Shown here: piece by piece, positions 17,246-34,571 of the stretch
Layout: each line of letters opens with the position of its first letter
How positions within the stretch are numbered: position 1 is the stretch's first letter
NCBI GenBank assembly: GCA_004377355.1
Contig: SOIB01000127.1
Span: forward strand, 1-48,947
DNA from: Candidatus Stahliibacteriota bacterium
Lineage (GTDB): Bacteria; Hydrothermota; UBA3072
Direction of reading: 5' to 3'
Length of the DNA stretch: 48,947 nt
Made by a program: the position numbers and the translations under genes
Notes under the pieces: model-generated
Seen by the model: the letters and a program-made list of their open reading frames with translations, nothing else
The model's database searches: none
What the model was told of the DNA's origin: nothing

Positions 17246-18133
17246 TTAATTTACAGAATCAACCACCTTTCTTATGGCTCTGATATGCTCTGGTGTTGTT
17301 CCGCAACAGCCACCAATGATTGACACACCCACGTTAACCAACTCTTTTGCTTTTTCTGCCATAAATAGAGGGGTTTCAGGATAAACAGAAGTGTTTTCTC
17401 TTATCTCTGGAATACCTGCGTTTGATTGGATGACAATTGGAAGGCTACTAAATTCCCTGAATTCTTTGGCAATCTTTATCATGTTTTCTATGCCATTACC
17501 ACAGTTTGAACCTATGATATCAGCTCCTTCGGATTCCAGTCCACCTGCTGCCTCTTCTATGTTTACACCCATCACTGTGTAAAAACCTCTTGGTGTGGGA
17601 TCAAATGTCATTGTTGCAATAACAGGGGTTGACGACGAAACAGTTTTCGCCGCTTTAACAGCAATTGTTGCCTCTCTCAAATCGGTCATTGTCTCTATGC
17701 ATATAATATCAACGTCTGCACTGATGAGTGCCTTCATCTGTCTTTCAAAACTATTGTACATTTCGGAATCTGATGTATCCCCATAAGGTTCCAGGAGTTT
17801 TCCACTTGGGCCGCAGGAACCAGAGATGTAAGCGCATTCTCCTACGACTTTTCTTACAGCAAGGACAGCATTTCTGTTTATTTCCTCTGTTTTATCCTCT
17901 AACGAATAAAATGAAAGCTTCAAAGGTGAAGCCCCAAAGGTATTGGTTTGAATTATATCAGCTCCTGCATCAAGATAAAGAGTTGCAATCTCACTGAGCA
18001 CCTTAAGACGTGCAAAGTTAAAAGATTCTGGAGGTTCTCCTACCTCAAGACCACGTTCCATAAGCATCGTGCCCATCGCGCCATCAGAAACCAATATCTC
18101 ACCCCTATTTAATCGCATAAGTAAGTCTTCCAT
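17246..18133 (-). CDS. homocysteine S-methyltransferase domain protein (MetH N-terminal-like)
   Basis: SDGAMGTMLMERGL, NTFGASPLKL, GSNCGNG and GGCCGTTPEHI (Zn-ligand cysteines). Confidence 0.93.
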   Translation of the reverse strand: MEDLLMRLNRGEILVSDGAMGTMLMERGLEVGEPPESFNFARLKVLSEIATLYLDAGADIIQTNTFGASPLKLSFYSLEDKTEEINRNAVLAVRKVVGECAYISGSCGPSGKLLEPYGDTSDSEMYNSFERQMKALISADVDIICIETMTDLREATIAVKAAKTVSSSTPVIATMTFDPTPRGFYTVMGVNIEEAAGGLESEGADIIGSNCGNGIENMIKIAKEFREFSSLPIVIQSNAGIPEIRENTSVYPETPLFMAEKAKELVNVGVSIIGGCCGTTPEHIRAIRKVVDSVN

Positions 18134-18134
18134 C

Positions 18135-18785
18135 TTAAGTCATTCCTGTGAGTCCCTTAACTTTTTCAATAGCGTTAATGCTATCATATCCAAAAGCATC
18201 TGCTCCGATTTCTCTCGCAAATTCTTCAGTAACTGGAGCTCCACCAATTATTGTTTTTATCTTGCCTATTAATCTTTCTTCTTTTAAAAGATCAATAACT
18301 ATCTTCATAAAAGGCATTGTTGTAGTAAGAAGAGCACTCATTCCAATTACCGAAGCGTCTTCTTTTTTTGCTATCTCTATGAATTCTGATGGTGAAACAT
18401 CATTACCAAGGTCTATAACTTCAAAGCCAGCACCCTTAAGCATAATACCTACAAGGTTCTTTCCTATATCATGTAAATCCCCTTGAACCGTCCCGATGAC
18501 CACCTTTCCAATAGTTGGTATCCCTCCTTTTATAAACATCGGTCTAAGCAAATCCATTCCCGCATACATTGCCTTGGCAGCAAGAAGCACATCCGGAAGG
18601 AAGATTTCGTGAGCCTTGTACTTTTTACCTATTATGTCCATCCCAAAAATTAATCCATTATTAAGTATCTCTTTGGGAGATATTTTTGCTTTTATCGCCT
18701 CCTTTGTGAATATTCTTACCTTTTCATCGTCACCCAGTTGTAAGTGCTCTGAAATCTTGTTTAATATATCCATTTTTGTAATCAC
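18135..18785 (-). CDS. corrinoid (cobalamin-binding) methyltransferase protein, MtbC/MttC/MtqC-like
   Basis: DLHDIGKNLVGIMLKGAGFEVIDLG (DxHxxG B12-ligand motif), GMSALLTTTMPFMK, GGAPVTEEFAREIGADAFGYD. Confidence 0.95.
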   Translation of the reverse strand: MITKMDILNKISEHLQLGDDEKVRIFTKEAIKAKISPKEILNNGLIFGMDIIGKKYKAHEIFLPDVLLAAKAMYAGMDLLRPMFIKGGIPTIGKVVIGTVQGDLHDIGKNLVGIMLKGAGFEVIDLGNDVSPSEFIEIAKKEDASVIGMSALLTTTMPFMKIVIDLLKEERLIGKIKTIIGGAPVTEEFAREIGADAFGYDSINAIEKVKGLTGMT

Positions 18786-18797
18786 TCCCTCACTTTT

Positions 18798-19526
18798 TCA
18801 TTCTCTAAACAACTCACTTATCCTATCTCTACAGAAATGAGTTTTACATTGACTGCAGAAAGCATAAGAATCTATAAAGTTATGAATCTCTTTCTCTCCT
18901 ATAACTATTACGCCTGATATTGATTTCAACGGTTTCATTAGGTAACTATCAAGTAGTGTAACACCAATATCCTCTGGATGTAAAAATTCAAAGAGTTTTT
19001 TCTGCCCGCTCATATGCCAACCGCAATAACCGGGGCAATATCTTAATATCCCTGTGGATGACGTAATCTCATCACTCTTTGCGAGCAACTCAGAAAAACG
19101 GTTTTCAACAATATCGGCTACTTTCTCAGTCCCTTCTGAAGCAACAGCATCCAACATACTCCCAAGAGCGAATTCATCTAATTCAAAAAGTTCACCTATC
19201 TTTTGACTCAACTTCTCACCGATTGTAACAGCAAATAGAGCAAGATAATCTGCCTTTTTAAAAATTTCATCAAGGGGTGTTTTCTTTTCATTTAAACCCT
19301 CTCCGAAGTATACAACTTCAAATTCGGGAATGGGTATTTCTGAAACTAGCCCTTTTGGATGAGAAAACTCAATAAAAAGTTCCATAGCTTCGGTGAAAAG
19401 TGTCTCCACTTTAAGAGAATGTTCTCTGTTAAGGGGGATGTCCTGATTTTTAAAGACATTTGCCTTTTCTAGCTTTATATCACTGATTCTAATTTCAACA
19501 ATTTCTCTTATAATTTTCATTTTCAT
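18798..19526 (-). CDS. stand-alone vitamin B12-dependent methionine synthase activation-domain-like protein
   Basis: YCPGYCGWHMSGQKKLFEFLHPEDIGVTLLDSYLMKPLKSISGVIVIG resembles the MetH reactivation domain; sits in the corrinoid operon. Confidence 0.8.
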   Translation of the reverse strand: MKMKIIREIVEIRISDIKLEKANVFKNQDIPLNREHSLKVETLFTEAMELFIEFSHPKGLVSEIPIPEFEVVYFGEGLNEKKTPLDEIFKKADYLALFAVTIGEKLSQKIGELFELDEFALGSMLDAVASEGTEKVADIVENRFSELLAKSDEITSSTGILRYCPGYCGWHMSGQKKLFEFLHPEDIGVTLLDSYLMKPLKSISGVIVIGEKEIHNFIDSYAFCSQCKTHFCRDRISELFRE

Positions 19527-19654
19527 AATTTTGCCTTATGATTTTGATTTTCAAAAAAAATATTTTTAAATCTATAATTATCTTAAGTTTAATACATTAA
19601 AGGTTTCAAGGGGCCGAGGGTTCTCTGTATCTATCTATGTTCATCTGGGTTTCA

Positions 19655-21112
19655 TTATTCATGTTCTGGTAGGTTCCTCATTCCATAAAGGTGAGCTTCT
19701 TCGGTCATCAGTTTCGTTAACTCCTTTTTTGTATCATCTTGTAATCTTGAGGAAACATAATTCTTTATTATTCTTTCCACCTCACCATGTGCCCTTTCTA
19801 AAAGAGTTATACTCCCTTCCTCTTGCCATCTTGTTCTACTTGCCCTGTCAATAACTACTCCAGGGAAATAGAATTCTTCATTTAGATAACGACGTGTATG
19901 CTCTGATATAAGTAGGTGTTGTTCCTTTAGAAGTTCCTGGAATCTTGGGAGCGAGGGAAAATCCTCTTTAGGCTCAATACCTTTTAACAAATGAATCGTC
20001 ATTCCACAGATTTCATTATCTAAAACAAGCTTTTCCAGACTCTGGCAGCTTTCAAAATCAAGCATTCCTGGTCCAGAAATGTTGTTTATTCCACAAAGAG
20101 CAGCAAGGGTTGCCCCCACTCCCGATTCAAGCCCTGCTTGAGCATCAAGCTGTTTTGAATCACTTAAGGATATATACCCCTGAGTTGGCATACCAAGGTA
20201 TTTCCCAATCTCATTATATGCGCAATCTATCATCATTGTTTCTACAGCACCCATTGGAGTCGTTTCATATCGGACATCAAATATGGCTGGCGAACCACCA
20301 TAAAGGATTGGTGTTCCTGGATTTGTAAACTGGCTAATTACAACACCACTCAGGGTTTCGGCTGTATGTTGAATCAATGTTCCAACAAGGGTAACAGGTG
20401 CCATAAATCCCGATAATGGCATGGAAACAAACTCCACTGGAATTGAAAAGTTGGCACAGTCTACAACATTTTGGGATGTTACATTACTCCATTTTATAGG
20501 TGAAGTTGGACAGCATGAGAATATTGTAAGTGGTTTTGATTTAAGTTCCTCTTTTGACCCTCGAATTATAACCTGAAACTCTTTCATAATATTGAATGCT
20601 TCCATGGTAAACGTACCGGTGACTACAGGTTTCTCACAGTAAAGAAAGCTTAAGTAAAGTCGATAACTATCTGAAATCTTCTCACAGACATCAGCTGGAA
20701 TAAATGCTGTACTCTGAGAAGCAATGTTATCAAGCTGACTTACAACTTTCACATACCTTACATAATCTGTTGTTTTTGGCTTACGAATCTCATTTGTTTC
20801 ATAATCCAGGATATTTAATGCAGCTGAACCGGGTGTAAAATATACATTATAATCTGAAAAATGATGTGTTTCATTACCAAGAACATCATAGAGTTTAAAG
20901 GATTTAGGAACCGCCTTTAATGCGCTTTCAATAATCTCATCTGTAAGGAAAACGTGGTACCTATCCATCTCAACCTTTGCTCCATGCTCTCCTAGCATGA
21001 AAAGGATATCCTTGTTGTGGATTTCCACACCAAGTTTACAAAGAATTTCCCTTGCTTCTCCTACTATCTTCTCTATAAGTTCATCGCTCAAGAATCTTAA
21101 TACCGGTCTCAT
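19655..21112 (-). CDS. MttB-family (trimethylamine/quaternary-amine:corrinoid) methyltransferase, non-pyrrolysine type
   Basis: 485 aa; SDSKQLDAQAGLESGVGATLAALCGINNISGPGMLDFESCQSLEKLVLDNEICGM and LSGFMAPVTLVGTLIQHTAETLSGVVISQ; no internal amber codon. Confidence 0.9.
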   Translation of the reverse strand: MRPVLRFLSDELIEKIVGEAREILCKLGVEIHNKDILFMLGEHGAKVEMDRYHVFLTDEIIESALKAVPKSFKLYDVLGNETHHFSDYNVYFTPGSAALNILDYETNEIRKPKTTDYVRYVKVVSQLDNIASQSTAFIPADVCEKISDSYRLYLSFLYCEKPVVTGTFTMEAFNIMKEFQVIIRGSKEELKSKPLTIFSCCPTSPIKWSNVTSQNVVDCANFSIPVEFVSMPLSGFMAPVTLVGTLIQHTAETLSGVVISQFTNPGTPILYGGSPAIFDVRYETTPMGAVETMMIDCAYNEIGKYLGMPTQGYISLSDSKQLDAQAGLESGVGATLAALCGINNISGPGMLDFESCQSLEKLVLDNEICGMTIHLLKGIEPKEDFPSLPRFQELLKEQHLLISEHTRRYLNEEFYFPGVVIDRASRTRWQEEGSITLLERAHGEVERIIKNYVSSRLQDDTKKELTKLMTEEAHLYGMRNLPEHE

Positions 21113-29332: not shown

Positions 29333-29682
29333 TGGTGGAGGCGGCGGGAATCGAACCCGCGTCCGAAATGGTAGTTTAGAAGCGTCTACATGCTTAGTGG
29401 CTGTTTTTTTATCGCCTTTCCCACACCCAACCACAGGATTAGGTAAGGCTATGCCAGTTATTTTTCATCCACAATCCCCTGGCAATGATTGTAGCTTATT
29501 CTCCTTCTATGACACCCTTCGAGAAAGTAGGAGAAGAACTTTCTCGAGAGCGAGCAGCTAAGTTAAGCTGCCAGGGCGTAATTAACGTTGCCATTTATGT
29601 TTATTACCACAGTTTTCCGAGTTATGGTGGCTCGGCATGCAACTTCCAATCAATTCCATCTCGTCGAAACCTTTTCGCCCCC
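29333..29682 (-). ncRNA. ssrA: transfer-messenger RNA (tmRNA)
   Basis: 5' GGGGGCGAAAAGGTTTCGACGAGAT and 3' GGTTCGATTCCCGCCGCCTCCACCA; 7-bp acceptor stem GGGGGCG/CGCCTCC (one G-U). Tag reading frame 29592..29563: GGC AAC GTT AAT TAC GCC CTG GCA GCT TAA = GNVNYALAA*, preceded by UA at -5/-4. Confidence 0.97.
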
Positions 29683-30165: not shown

Positions 30166-31800
30166 ATGGGAAATGCCATTTATAAAATAGAAAAACCGTC
30201 AAATGAACCTATTTATCCCTATGGTCCCGGAAGTTTAGAGAAAAAGGAATTAAGAGAAAAAATAAAAGAACTTAAAGGCAAAGAGCTCGAGATTCCACTT
30301 ATTATAGGTGGTGAAGAGATAATGACAGGAGATATTGGAGAATGTGTTATACCACATGAAAACGATAAGATTTTGGGCAAGTATCACAAGGCTGGAAAGG
30401 ATGAAGTAGAGATGGCGATAGAAGCAGCTCTAAAAGCAGGGAAAAAGTGGTCAGACACACCATGGGAGCATCGTGCTTCAATCTTCAAGAGAGCAGCTGA
30501 ACTCCTATCAGGACCTTGGAGAAGCACCGTAAATGCAGCCTGTATGCTATGTCAGAGTAAAACTGTGTTCCAGGCAGAGATTGATTCTGCATGTGAGTTG
30601 ATAGACTTCTTCCGCTTCAACACTTATTATATGACAGAGATATATAAAGAGCAGCCAGATTCAACTGGGACATCTTATAATAGATTGGAATACAGACCTC
30701 TTGAAGGATTTGTCTTTGCTGTGACACCATTTAACTTTGCATCAATAGCAGGAAACCTCCCTTCTGCACCAGCTATTATGGGTAGTGTATCTGTCTGGAA
30801 ACCTGCATCCTCTGCAGTTTATACTGCATACTGGCTAATGAAACTGTTCCAGGAAGCAGGGGTTCCTGATGGAGTAATAAATTTCGTTCCAGGTTCAGGA
30901 GGAAATGTTGGTCAGCCTGCCCTCGCCAATGCAAACCTTGCCGGTGTACACTTCACTGGCTCTACTGCTGTATTCCAGCATATGTGGAAAACAATTGGAG
31001 ATAACATCATGAATTATAAGACCTATCCAAGAATTGTTGGAGAAACAGGTGGAAAAAACTTTGTCTTTGTCCATGAAAGCGCTAATATGAAAGAAGTCCT
31101 TACAGCACTTGTAAGAGGAGCTTTTGAATATCAGGGACAGAAATGTTCCGCTGCTTCACGTGCATATATTCCTCTTAGTATGTGGAAAGGAGGATTAAAA
31201 GAGGAACTCATCAACACGACAGAGGACATAAAAATGGGGTCCCCAGAAGATTTCAGAAACTTTCTGGCTGCAGTGATAGATAAGGCTGCTTTCAATACAA
31301 TAACAAAATACATAGATGAAGCGAAAAAATCTTCTGATGCTGAAATAATTGCTGGTGGAGAATACGATGATTCAAAAGGATTTTTTGTAAGACCTACAAT
31401 AATTCTCACCAAAGACCCAAAATACAAGACAATGAAAGAGGAGATATTTGGTCCAGTCCTCACATTATATGTATATAAAGATAATGAATATGAAGAAACA
31501 CTCAAAATCTGTGATGAGACTTCTCCATACGCTCTAACCGGTTCTATATTCGCAAAAGACAGAGATGCTATTATAAAGGCTGCAAAAGTTCTCACTCATG
31601 CTGCCGGTAATTTCTATATTAATGATAAACCAACAGGTGCAGTGGTTGGACAACAACCATTTGGAGGAAGTCGCGCATCAGGAACTAACGATAAAGCAGG
31701 GAGTAAATTAAATCTCATTAGATGGGTTTCTCCAAGAACAATAAAAGAAAACCTTTCTCCTCCTACAGACTATCGATATCTATTTATGCAGGAAAAGTAA
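30166..31800 (+). CDS. 1-pyrroline-5-carboxylate dehydrogenase (ALDH4A1-like)
   Basis: IQAEIDSACELIDFFRFN-like (VFQAEIDSACELIDFFRFN), GETGGKNFVFVHESAN, FEYQGQKCSAASRAYIP (catalytic Cys), GNFYINDKPTGAVVGQQPFGGSRASGTNDKAG; SD GGAGGT at 30157. Confidence 0.95.
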   Translation: MGNAIYKIEKPSNEPIYPYGPGSLEKKELREKIKELKGKELEIPLIIGGEEIMTGDIGECVIPHENDKILGKYHKAGKDEVEMAIEAALKAGKKWSDTPWEHRASIFKRAAELLSGPWRSTVNAACMLCQSKTVFQAEIDSACELIDFFRFNTYYMTEIYKEQPDSTGTSYNRLEYRPLEGFVFAVTPFNFASIAGNLPSAPAIMGSVSVWKPASSAVYTAYWLMKLFQEAGVPDGVINFVPGSGGNVGQPALANANLAGVHFTGSTAVFQHMWKTIGDNIMNYKTYPRIVGETGGKNFVFVHESANMKEVLTALVRGAFEYQGQKCSAASRAYIPLSMWKGGLKEELINTTEDIKMGSPEDFRNFLAAVIDKAAFNTITKYIDEAKKSSDAEIIAGGEYDDSKGFFVRPTIILTKDPKYKTMKEEIFGPVLTLYVYKDNEYEETLKICDETSPYALTGSIFAKDRDAIIKAAKVLTHAAGNFYINDKPTGAVVGQQPFGGSRASGTNDKAGSKLNLIRWVSPRTIKENLSPPTDYRYLFMQEK

Positions 31801-31801
31801 G

Positions 31802-33013
31802 ATGAAAGAAGCAACAGTTGGCACATTAGGTGAAGAAAAAGTCGTAGACTGTAATATACACCTCAAGATAAAACGCTCTGGTGGTATCGATCTTGAACTT
31901 AAATCAAAAGTCGATGTTACATATGGTAAATCCATCCGTCAACTTGTTCATAAGGGATTATCATTCTTTGGAATAGATAATGCCAAAATAGTGATTGATG
32001 ATTATGGAGCATATCCTTTTGTCATGCAGGCAAGAATTGAAACTGTTGTAAAAAGGGCTCTTCCAGATGTGGATAATGAATTCCTTCCGGAGTTTTCGGA
32101 TAAATGTTTATACAAATCATCAATGGATAGATTTCGAAGGACTCGCTTATATCTACCAGGGAGTTTTCCAAAGTTTATGATAAATGCAGGGATACATAAT
32201 CCTGATGGAATCATACTGGATTTAGAGGATTCCGTTGCTCCAACAGAGAAAGATGCTGCAAGAGCACTGGTGCGGAATGCTCTTCGCGTTGTAAACTTTT
32301 ACAATGCAGAAAGAATGGTAAGAATAAATCAACTTCCTATGGGGCTTATTGACCTCGAATGGGTAATACCACACAACACTCATCTAATACTCATTCCTAA
32401 ATGTGAATCTACCGGTACAGTCCTAAAGGTTGATGAAAAAATAGAGGAAATAAAGAAAAAAAATAATATTGAGCAGGATATATTCTTAATGCCAATTATA
32501 GAGAGCGCATTGGGTGTAATCAAGGCATATGAGATAGCTTCGATATCTTCCAATGTAGTTGCTCTTGCTATTGGTCTTGAAGACTATACTGCTGATATAG
32601 GTACCGAGCGATCAATTGAAGGTAAAGAAAGTTTCCTCGCTCGTTCGGTTATCGTAAATGCAGCACGTGCAGCAGGTGTACAGCCCATTGATACTGTATT
32701 CTCGGATGTTGATGATACAGAAGGATTACGCAAGAGCACTCTTGAAGCAAAATCCCTTGGCTTTGAGGGAAAAGGTTGTATTCACCCTCGTCAAATTGAG
32801 ATAATACACGATGCATTCGCGCCAAAAGAAGAAGAAATTGAAAAGGCAAAAAAGATAGTCAAAGCTTTTGAAAAAGCAAAAGCTCGTGGTCTCTCTGTAG
32901 TTTCACTCGGAAGCAAAATGATAGATCCTCCGGTTGTAAAACGAGCAGAGAAAACAGTCCAGCTTGCAATGAAGATAGGTAAACTGGATGAGAATTGGAG
33001 GGATAATGAGTGA
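31802..33013 (+). CDS. fusion of citrate lyase acyl-carrier-like domain (CitD) and citrate lyase beta subunit (CitE)
   Basis: N-terminus VGTLGEEKVVDCNIHLKIKRSGGIDLELKSKVDVTYGKSIRQLVHKGLSFFGIDNAKIVIDDYGAYPFVMQARIETVVKRA resembles CitD; then CitE motifs RRTRLYLPGSFPKFMINAG, DGIILDLEDSVAPTEKDAAR, VALAIGLEDYTADIG, GCIHPRQIEIIHDAF. Confidence 0.88.
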   Translation: MKEATVGTLGEEKVVDCNIHLKIKRSGGIDLELKSKVDVTYGKSIRQLVHKGLSFFGIDNAKIVIDDYGAYPFVMQARIETVVKRALPDVDNEFLPEFSDKCLYKSSMDRFRRTRLYLPGSFPKFMINAGIHNPDGIILDLEDSVAPTEKDAARALVRNALRVVNFYNAERMVRINQLPMGLIDLEWVIPHNTHLILIPKCESTGTVLKVDEKIEEIKKKNNIEQDIFLMPIIESALGVIKAYEIASISSNVVALAIGLEDYTADIGTERSIEGKESFLARSVIVNAARAAGVQPIDTVFSDVDDTEGLRKSTLEAKSLGFEGKGCIHPRQIEIIHDAFAPKEEEIEKAKKIVKAFEKAKARGLSVVSLGSKMIDPPVVKRAEKTVQLAMKIGKLDENWRDNE

Positions 33014-34571
33014 GGATTACAGGTTAAAGAAAAATGCAGTGGGTAGATTGGTTCCTACAATAATAAATGGAGAAAATGCTATTCCCTATCAGGGGGTAGG
33101 TAAATATAAACCAAAAGGTAGGAAAACTATCCCTCCCATTTCAACATGTGCAGATTATCCTGATGATGGGAATAAGGTAGTAAAGAACTTAAAAACTGCA
33201 CTACAAGCAGCTGGAATAAAAGACGGAATGACTATCTCAACCCACCATCACTTCAGAAATGGAGATTATGTAGCAAATGCTATCTTTGACGCAACAGCCA
33301 ATATAGGAGTAAAAGACCTCCGGTGGTTTCCTTCAGCCTCATTCCCATGCCATGCACCCATAATAGAGCATTTAAAATCCGGTGTGATTCATCATATAGA
33401 AGGTAGTCTGAATGGACCCTTAGGAGAATTCGCTTCCAAAGGCAGTATGAAGGGTATGGGGGTTCTACGTTCCCATGGTGGTCGATATCAGGCTGTGCAG
33501 GATGGAGAAGTCCACATAGATATTGCTGTAATTGCAGCTCCAACTGCAGACCCCTTTGGTAATGCAAATGGTCTTTATGGAGAATCAGCATGTGGATTAC
33601 TTGGTTTTGCACTGGTTGATTCACAATATGCAGATCAGGTTATCATAGTAACTGATAATCTAATAGAATTTCCCTGCTATCCCTGGCAGATACAGGGTAA
33701 CTACGTGGATTATGTAGTGATCATGGATAAGATAGGAGATCCTGAGAAAATAGTATCAGGGACAACAATGATAACAAGAAGTCCTGATAGACAGCGAATT
33801 GCAAGGTTGGCAGCGCAGTTCTTAAGAGATACAGGTATAATGAAAGAAGGATTCTCCTTCCAGGCAGGAGCTGGTGGCACATCACTTGCCTTTGTTGATT
33901 ACCTTTCAAACTATATGAGGGAAGCAGGGATAACCGCACAATTTGTCAGGGGTGGTAGTACACAATACCTTGTTGATATGCTTGAAGAAGGCCTAACCAA
34001 TTACATATTGGATGGACAGACTTTTGACCTCAAAGGCGTCCAGTCAATGAGGGATAATCCAAACCATGCTGATACCAGCCCCTTCACGAGTTATAATTAT
34101 CACGGGAAAGGTATGTTTGCCACGATGGTGGATGCAGCTATCCTGGGTGCAACAGAGGTAGACATCAATTTCAACGGAAATGTTAATACCCATTCAGATG
34201 GGCTGTTACTACACGGTATTGGAGGCTGGCAGAATACAATATTCTCTAAATGCACTATACTCACTATTCCCACCTTCAGGAACAGGATTCCTATCTTAGT
34301 GGATGAAGTTACAACCCTCACGGGACCCGGTGAACTCATCGATGTTGTTGTTACCGAGCGGGGAATTGCGATAAATCCAAGAAGGAAGGACCTACAAAAT
34401 GCTATAAAGGGTTCAGACCTCCCAATCCGTTCCATAGAAGAGTTAAAAGAGGAAGCAGAGGATATATGTGGTGGTAAACCAAATAAGCCAAAACTGGGAG
34501 ATAGAATTATCGCTGCAATCAAATGGGTTGATGGGACAGTGATTGATGCAGTAAGGCAAGTCCTGGATTAA
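33006..34571 (+). CDS. citF: citrate lyase alpha subunit (CitF)-like CoA transferase
   Basis: ISTHHHFRNGDYVANAIFD, GVLRSHGGRYQAVQDGEVHIDIAVIAAPTADPFGNANG, GAGGTSLAF, GQTFDLKGVQSMRDNPNH. Start at 33006 has SD GGAGGG; the track ORF begins at 32988. Confidence 0.93.
   Translation: MSEDYRLKKNAVGRLVPTIINGENAIPYQGVGKYKPKGRKTIPPISTCADYPDDGNKVVKNLKTALQAAGIKDGMTISTHHHFRNGDYVANAIFDATANIGVKDLRWFPSASFPCHAPIIEHLKSGVIHHIEGSLNGPLGEFASKGSMKGMGVLRSHGGRYQAVQDGEVHIDIAVIAAPTADPFGNANGLYGESACGLLGFALVDSQYADQVIIVTDNLIEFPCYPWQIQGNYVDYVVIMDKIGDPEKIVSGTTMITRSPDRQRIARLAAQFLRDTGIMKEGFSFQAGAGGTSLAFVDYLSNYMREAGITAQFVRGGSTQYLVDMLEEGLTNYILDGQTFDLKGVQSMRDNPNHADTSPFTSYNYHGKGMFATMVDAAILGATEVDINFNGNVNTHSDGLLLHGIGGWQNTIFSKCTILTIPTFRNRIPILVDEVTTLTGPGELIDVVVTERGIAINPRRKDLQNAIKGSDLPIRSIEELKEEAEDICGGKPNKPKLGDRIIAAIKWVDGTVIDAVRQVLD

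Follow-up and report, generated by a model that had tools for sequence, protein, structure and literature searches.

Results

The four-gene module and its proteins

We examined a four-gene module encoded on the minus strand at positions 17,246 to 21,112 of contig SOIB01000127.1 from a Candidatus Stahliibacteriota bacterium. The whole stretch analyzed, 48,947 nucleotides, is referred to here as the window, and it belongs to a metagenome-assembled genome (MAG) of 1.81 Mb that is 95% complete (assembly GCA_004377355.1, G000 in our set). Among named lineages, this genome is closest to Candidatus Stahlbacteria/candidate division WOR-3. In order of transcription, the module comprises:

19655..21112 (-): MttB-superfamily methyltransferase, non-pyrrolysine, 485 amino acids, first gene of the module (Pfam MTTB, 230.7 bits)
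18798..19526 (-): stand-alone MetH-type cobalamin reactivation protein, binding S-adenosylmethionine (AdoMet or SAM), 242 amino acids (Met_synt_B12, 41.3 bits)
18135..18785 (-): corrinoid protein with cap and B12-binding domains, 216 amino acids (B12-binding, 94.3 bits; cap, 72.8 bits)
17246..18133 (-): zinc-type homocysteine S-methyltransferase, 295 amino acids (S-methyl_trans, 227.2 bits)

The four open reading frames lie where an earlier sequence-based note had placed them and in the same order. They are separated by 128, 12 and 1 bp in order of transcription. The DxHxxG motif claimed for the corrinoid protein is present as GDLHDIG, and the assignment of the homocysteine enzyme to the zinc type is borne out by the ligand motifs SNCGNG and GGCCGTTP. 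A Pfam search of the four proteins found a pterin domain in none of them, and the MetE-type catalytic domain (PF01717) was likewise absent from all four.

The MTTB domain of the first protein spans residues 3–468 and scores 230.7 bits against a cut-off of 25, which places the protein in the MttB superfamily (PF06253). In an alignment to MtgB (2qne/9yce) and MttB (7xcl), leucine (TTA codon) occupies the position of pyrrolysine 334 (Pyl334) of M. barkeri MttB, as it does in 85 of the 86 MttB-homolog sequences. Because of this leucine, and because the TIGR02369 score of 351 bits falls under the cut-off of 525, we class the protein by sequence as a non-pyrrolysine MttB homolog and not as MttB proper, the pyrrolysine-containing trimethylamine (TMA) methyltransferase. 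An Rfam PYLIS_3 match (window 20068–20167, minus strand; 38.5 against a gathering score of 38) begins exactly at the pyrrolysine-equivalent codon. Pyrrolysine read-through was rejected, since this codon is TTA and the match is best explained by mttB homology. The top Foldseek matches were MtgB and MttB (TM-score about 0.82), identity to D. hafniense MtgB is about 28–29%, and residues G95, C219, M231, D279, E329 and E354 are invariant in the 86 sequences. The AlphaFold model is moderate (pLDDT 77) and poor around the active site, and we therefore make no claim about the substrate pocket. No second MTTB protein is encoded in the window's genome, and MttB occurs as one copy per genome in the phylum. 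We propose that the protein acts as a methyl-donor:corrinoid methyltransferase.

The reactivation protein carries the AdoMet reactivation domain PF02965 above cut-off (41.3 bits) and is the only Met_synt_B12 protein in its genome. Its AlphaFold model (pLDDT 92.5) matched T. maritima TM0269 (1j6r) best in Foldseek (E = 1.9e-11), followed by MetH activation domains. Cys168, Cys224, Cys227 and Cys232, found in GYCGW and in a C-terminal CxxCx4C, are invariant in 66 of 66 sequences and could possibly form an iron-sulfur or zinc site. The corrinoid protein has the B12 cap and the DxHxxG-bearing B12-binding domain expected of MetH. Its matches reached 184 bits to PDB entry 1y80, 154.7 bits to MttC and 92 bits to MetH, and the top NCBIfam model was MtgC_2 (207 bits, under that model's cut-off). 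By these scores it appears closer to the MttC/MtgC type than to the MetH type; Asp103, His105, Gly108 and Ser150 are invariant in 68 of 68 sequences. The homocysteine enzyme is a MetH-like zinc homocysteine barrel (PF02574, 227 bits) with no pterin or B12 domain fused to it. It scored 175 bits against the T. maritima MetH barrel versus about 80 bits against BHMT and fell under the PRK07534 cut-off, and its two zinc-ligand motifs are conserved in 59 sequences.

Conservation of the four-gene unit

Single-family profile searches of 147 genomes of the phylum found the MttB protein encoded in 27, mostly at 66–80% identity. The order MttB, reactivation, corrinoid, homocysteine methyltransferase (HcyMT) is intact in 17 phylum genomes, the window's included; four further loci run off their contig and three lack the reactivation gene. 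One locus (L055, genome G135) has the shuffled order corrinoid-HcyMT-reactivation-MttB with a divergent MttB, and another (L036, genome G012) has MttB alone without partners; these two MttB proteins form a second clade, about 50% identical. The reactivation gene is broken in one last phylum locus, L045: at L045:7129-9045 (-) and L135:9422-11338 (+), a truncated reactivation gene is fused in frame to part of the PriA helicase and the corrinoid and homocysteine genes are missing, through deletion or assembly error. The resulting 638-amino-acid "reactivation" reading frame was discarded as a truncated N-terminus joined to PriA.

Beyond the phylum, one genome per GTDB species was scanned with the MttB alignment, and the best 80 of 366 relatives were analyzed. 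These 80 span more than ten phyla, among them WOR-3, Stahlbacteria, Zixibacteria, Planctomycetota, Neomarinimicrobiota, Cloacimonadota, Bacteroidota, Aminicenantes, Acidobacteriota, Fermentibacteria, Electryoneota, Myxococcota and others. The full gene order, which the earlier note had proposed to map, is kept in 47 of the best 80, and in three more the reactivation gene comes first; many loci without the full order end at contig edges. Median gaps across the relatives are -4, 17 and 1 bp, with the MttB stop codon typically overlapping the next start. This four-gene arrangement is far beyond chance. Mean pairwise identity is 71% across phyla, and pairwise divergence is correlated among all four proteins (r = 0.63–0.80; highest of 500 permutations, 0.22). 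Shared ancestry accounts for part of this correlation, which is thus evidence that the genes have moved as a group and not that their products bind one another. The MttB tree intermingles phyla, which suggests some horizontal spread, with MAG mislabelling and paralogy as alternatives. In the flanks of the best relatives, no additional gene is repeatedly found next to the module in different phyla, and the module therefore looks complete in itself. These flanking genes gave no hint of the substrate, and no RamA (DUF4445)/DUF1638-like gene recurs among them, a genome-wide search for such genes not having been made. In some Acidobacteria and Planctomycetes, a very similar MttB (67–70% identity; L186, L192, L193, L195, L196, L200 and L201) stands without module partners in the flanks examined, and in L196 and L201 its neighbor is a threonine aldolase-like gene.

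Pterin partners and genomes that may depend on the module

The earlier note had allowed that a pterin domain could sit elsewhere in the genome, and had taken a complete metH or another pterin:corrinoid partner there as a finding that would overturn it. Neither turned up. The only Pterin_bind match in the genome is the dihydropteroate synthase FolP, which adjoins FolE, and MtrH has no match in any of the 147 phylum genomes, the window's included. On these grounds a hidden pterin partner was rejected, and the lack of a pterin domain first described for the locus extends, FolP excepted, to the genome. The genome thus offers neither the pterin (5-methyltetrahydrofolate) domain that MetH has in cis or in trans nor the MtgD-like pterin protein of an MtgBCDE system.

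Search results for MttB, Pterin_bind, methylenetetrahydrofolate reductase (MTHFR) and MetE were merged by hand over 26 module-bearing genomes. A second Pterin_bind match that was counted but unlisted was treated as MetH-type, and absence calls in MAGs are subject to genome incompleteness. An MTHFR match above cut-off is missing from 12 of the 26, and in nine of these 12 the searches also failed to find a MetH-type pterin protein, MetE or core-MetE. Three of these nine are single-contig genomes (G076, G087 and G089); the others are G125, G015, G073, G074, G090 and G110. Completeness is 90% or more in seven of the nine but only 79% in G073 and G074, the former of which also shows a single weak, partial match to MTHFR. 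As far as these profiles can tell, the nine have no visible methionine synthase other than the module. Two other genomes, G142 and G143, have no Pterin_bind match, not even FolP, and no MTHFR; a core-MetE-like gene is present in both. No MTHFR match lies on the module's contig stretch, and several lie elsewhere beside MetH or MetE-type matches. Many genomes without the module also lack MTHFR, and MTHFR absence is not enriched with the module.

We considered PF01053 matches as proof of homocysteine synthesis and rejected them, as the genes in G087 and G076 resemble methionine gamma-lyases by eye. They belong to large amino-acid/acyl-CoA degradation clusters (L207 in G087, L209 in G076), and the predicted content of these clusters suggests that such module-only cells may break methionine down besides making it.

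Other features of the window

Downstream of the module lie an M48 peptidase gene and then a division/wall cluster, and upstream, on the opposite strand, YqgF- and MltG-like genes; the cluster and the upstream genes were named by eye from sequence, and all are unrelated to the module. Elsewhere, positions 30166–34571 (+) hold an aldehyde-dehydrogenase-type gene followed by an apparent fused citrate lyase gamma-beta gene (CitD-CitE) that overlaps a CitF-like gene, all named from sequence. A transfer-messenger RNA gene with the tag GNVNYALAA lies at 29333–29682 (-).

Discussion

Together, the four gene products probably constitute a methionine synthase that depends on cobalamin but not on folate, with an MttB homolog in the place of the pterin domain. 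The MttB homolog would move a methyl group from a small methylated-nitrogen compound to the corrinoid Co(I), with an acidic quaternary amine as the most likely donor; such amines are preferred by characterized non-pyrrolysine MttB proteins (PMC12155760). The homocysteine enzyme, in which the zinc and homocysteine motifs are present, would then take the methyl group from methyl-Co(III) to yield methionine. When Co(I) is oxidized to Co(II), the reactivation protein, judging by its fold and motif, would re-methylate it with SAM and an electron, and a rescue of this SAM type would be better matched to biosynthesis at low flux than to a catabolic cycle of the RamA type. With the MttB subunit filling the place of the MetH pterin domain, methyl-folate would not be needed. 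The joining of catabolic-type donor and corrinoid proteins to MetH-type acceptor and reactivation proteins is consistent with a methylated amine being used anabolically. The module stands on its own, is shared by many phyla and, in nine relatives without MTHFR, is the sole synthase visible, all of which strengthens the replacement of the pterin domain by MttB that the earlier note had proposed. The note's further suggestion, that a quaternary-amine methyl passes straight to homocysteine, we keep in weaker form, as the donor is named by family resemblance only (about 28% identity to MtgB) and no betaine ATP-binding cassette (ABC) receptor goes with it.

The closest precedent is MtgBCDE of Ruegeria pomeroyi, in which MtgC serves both betaine demethylation and methionine synthesis, the methyl group reaching the HcyMT MtgE (PMC12478193). 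Since the MtgB family passes methyl groups to a corrinoid protein and MtgC passes them to MtgE in Ruegeria, there is precedent for each half of the module (PMC12478193). Like MtgBCDE and the split MetH of Phaeobacter (PMC5764234), the module arranges MttB-family, stand-alone corrinoid and homocysteine proteins around one corrinoid hub, and sharing this hub would make a methyl flow from amine to homocysteine possible in the module as in Ruegeria. In Ruegeria, however, the system requires the pterin protein MtgD, mutation of mtgD or mtgC causes methionine auxotrophy, reactivation involves RamA/DUF1638 with RamA the likely reactivase, and mtgE is usually unlinked (PMC12478193). The module has no pterin protein, a PF02965 reactivation protein of MetH type and four genes in one conserved unit, and it is found in uncultured phyla.

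Other known systems share parts of the arrangement. The MtgB, MtpB, MtcB, MtyB and MthB systems (PMC8604678, PMC12155760) also pair a non-pyrrolysine MttB barrel with an MtgC/MttC-type corrinoid protein, but they send the methyl group to tetrahydrofolate or coenzyme M via a further, separate methyltransferase (MtqA, MthA and the like), whereas the acceptor enzyme of the module is a homocysteine methyltransferase. MetH, including T. maritima TM0268/TM0269, has the homocysteine barrel, the B12 module and a separate reactivation protein (1j6r is TM0269); the module differs in having MttB instead of the pterin domain, an MttC-like corrinoid protein and extra invariant cysteines in the reactivation protein. 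The core methionine synthases MesA-D/core-MetE (PMC7857596, PMC7005905) are likewise folate-independent, with methyl-corrinoid as the probable proximal donor (MesA-C), but they use a MetE-type barrel and methyl groups thought to come from MtrA or the corrinoid iron-sulfur protein (CoFeSP), in contrast to the MetH-type barrel and MttB donor protein of the module. Type I mlp clusters (PMC10418091) are also widespread, folate-free corrinoid methyltransferase clusters, proposed to act in methionine/selenium salvage; they encode UroD-superfamily MtaA-like proteins and a Ram activase where the module encodes MttB, PF02574 and PF02965 proteins. The literature searched, which covered few subscription papers, held no description of the four-gene unit and, except for PMC12478193, no paper linking MttB to homocysteine methylation. 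We suggest tentatively that the unit may be an undescribed and widespread folate-independent synthase, the sole one in some WOR-3 lineages and probably in other uncultured phyla.

The MttB homolog could instead have turned into a methyltransferase for methyl-folate or another pterin, and the module would then be a split MetH of the ordinary kind whose pterin barrel happens to be non-homologous. Its TIM barrel is weakly near in structure to folate-binding methyltransferases (4o1e and MetH folate domains), the window's genome encodes an MTHFR domain, and 71% mean pairwise identity across phyla points to a single donor used by all and not to a nutrient taken up as opportunity offers. We nevertheless regard this as unlikely: the nearest folds are quaternary-amine and TMA methyltransferases, MTHFR lies outside the module where it is present at all, nearly half of the module genomes (12 of 26) lack it above cut-off, nine of them together with MetH and MetE, and G142 and G143 lack even FolP. 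It seems still less likely that the module is mainly catabolic, demethylating methylated amines for use with homocysteine as the methyl sink. MttB and its corrinoid partner do resemble catabolic systems, and the window's genome has another possible methionine route, but phylum genomes with MttB keep a single copy of it, neither genes for using the demethylated product nor a transporter recur beside the module, and the reactivation protein is of the SAM type seen in MetH and not RamA. Homocysteine is, moreover, a poor stoichiometric methyl sink.

We give a similarly small chance to mere co-location, in which an unlinked methyltransferase feeds the corrinoid/reactivation/homocysteine core while MttB serves some other purpose. 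In its favor, partners are missing from the examined flanks of seven MttB loci. Against it, MttB comes first in a conserved order, its stop typically runs into the following start (median gap -4 bp) and it diverges in step with its partners; the phylum lacks MtrH, and many module genomes lack MetH-type pterin domains. Most improbable is a reverse flow, in which methionine would methylate the corrinoid protein and MttB would make a methylated amine. Methionine-gamma-lyase-like PF01053 genes in two module-only genomes make methionine breakdown plausible there, but moving a methyl group from methionine onto cob(I)alamin is energetically very unfavorable in MetH chemistry, and we know of no characterized MttB-family member that acts as an amine methylase.

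Several observations count against the synthase that we favor. What is shown for it is gene content, order, motifs, folds and genomic absences. Besides the seven partnerless MttB loci, 6 of the 80 loci lack the reactivation gene. Among the flanks of relatives no transporter recurs beside the module, and the phylum has practically no OpuAC, the family of glycine-betaine ABC receptors, other transporters not having been tested. The searches, which did not include CoFeSP, may have overlooked a CoFeSP-based route or a divergent MTHFR, and the strong PF01053 matches of module-only genomes lie among acyl-CoA degradation genes in both clusters read. Finally, the window's genome has a second homocysteine locus on contig C24 (L006:2854-6686, minus strand), which encodes an HcyMT-MTHFR fusion followed by two MetE-family proteins. 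The fusion (595 amino acids, PRK08645 type) scores 635 bits, above cut-off, and its HcyMT half shares 34% identity with the homocysteine enzyme of the module. Of the two MetE-family proteins (PF01717; 303 and 369 amino acids), one has zinc-type HxC...C motifs and the other seems to lack HxC. By its predicted proteins, the C24 locus is possibly a two-part core-MetE methionine synthase in its own right. The MetE search that the earlier note had proposed thus does not exclude MetE and, because of this second locus, the module is not necessarily the sole methionine route in the window's genome. The "methionine synthase by parts" described earlier is narrowed accordingly for this genome, where the module probably works beside the HcyMT-MTHFR and MetE-like locus. 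In another genome of the same family, G127, the matches are arranged as on C24, without the MttB module.

Folate one-carbon metabolism and SAM are linked chiefly through methionine synthesis. If the proposed synthase is real, it would assign a role to the uncharacterized MttB homologs of a large clade and explain how methionine is made in lineages without MetH, MetE or MTHFR. For methionine, and hence for SAM, these lineages would rely on methylated amines that they scavenge instead of on the one-carbon metabolism of folate, and the SAM pool of many uncultured bacteria would be tied to methylated amines from outside.

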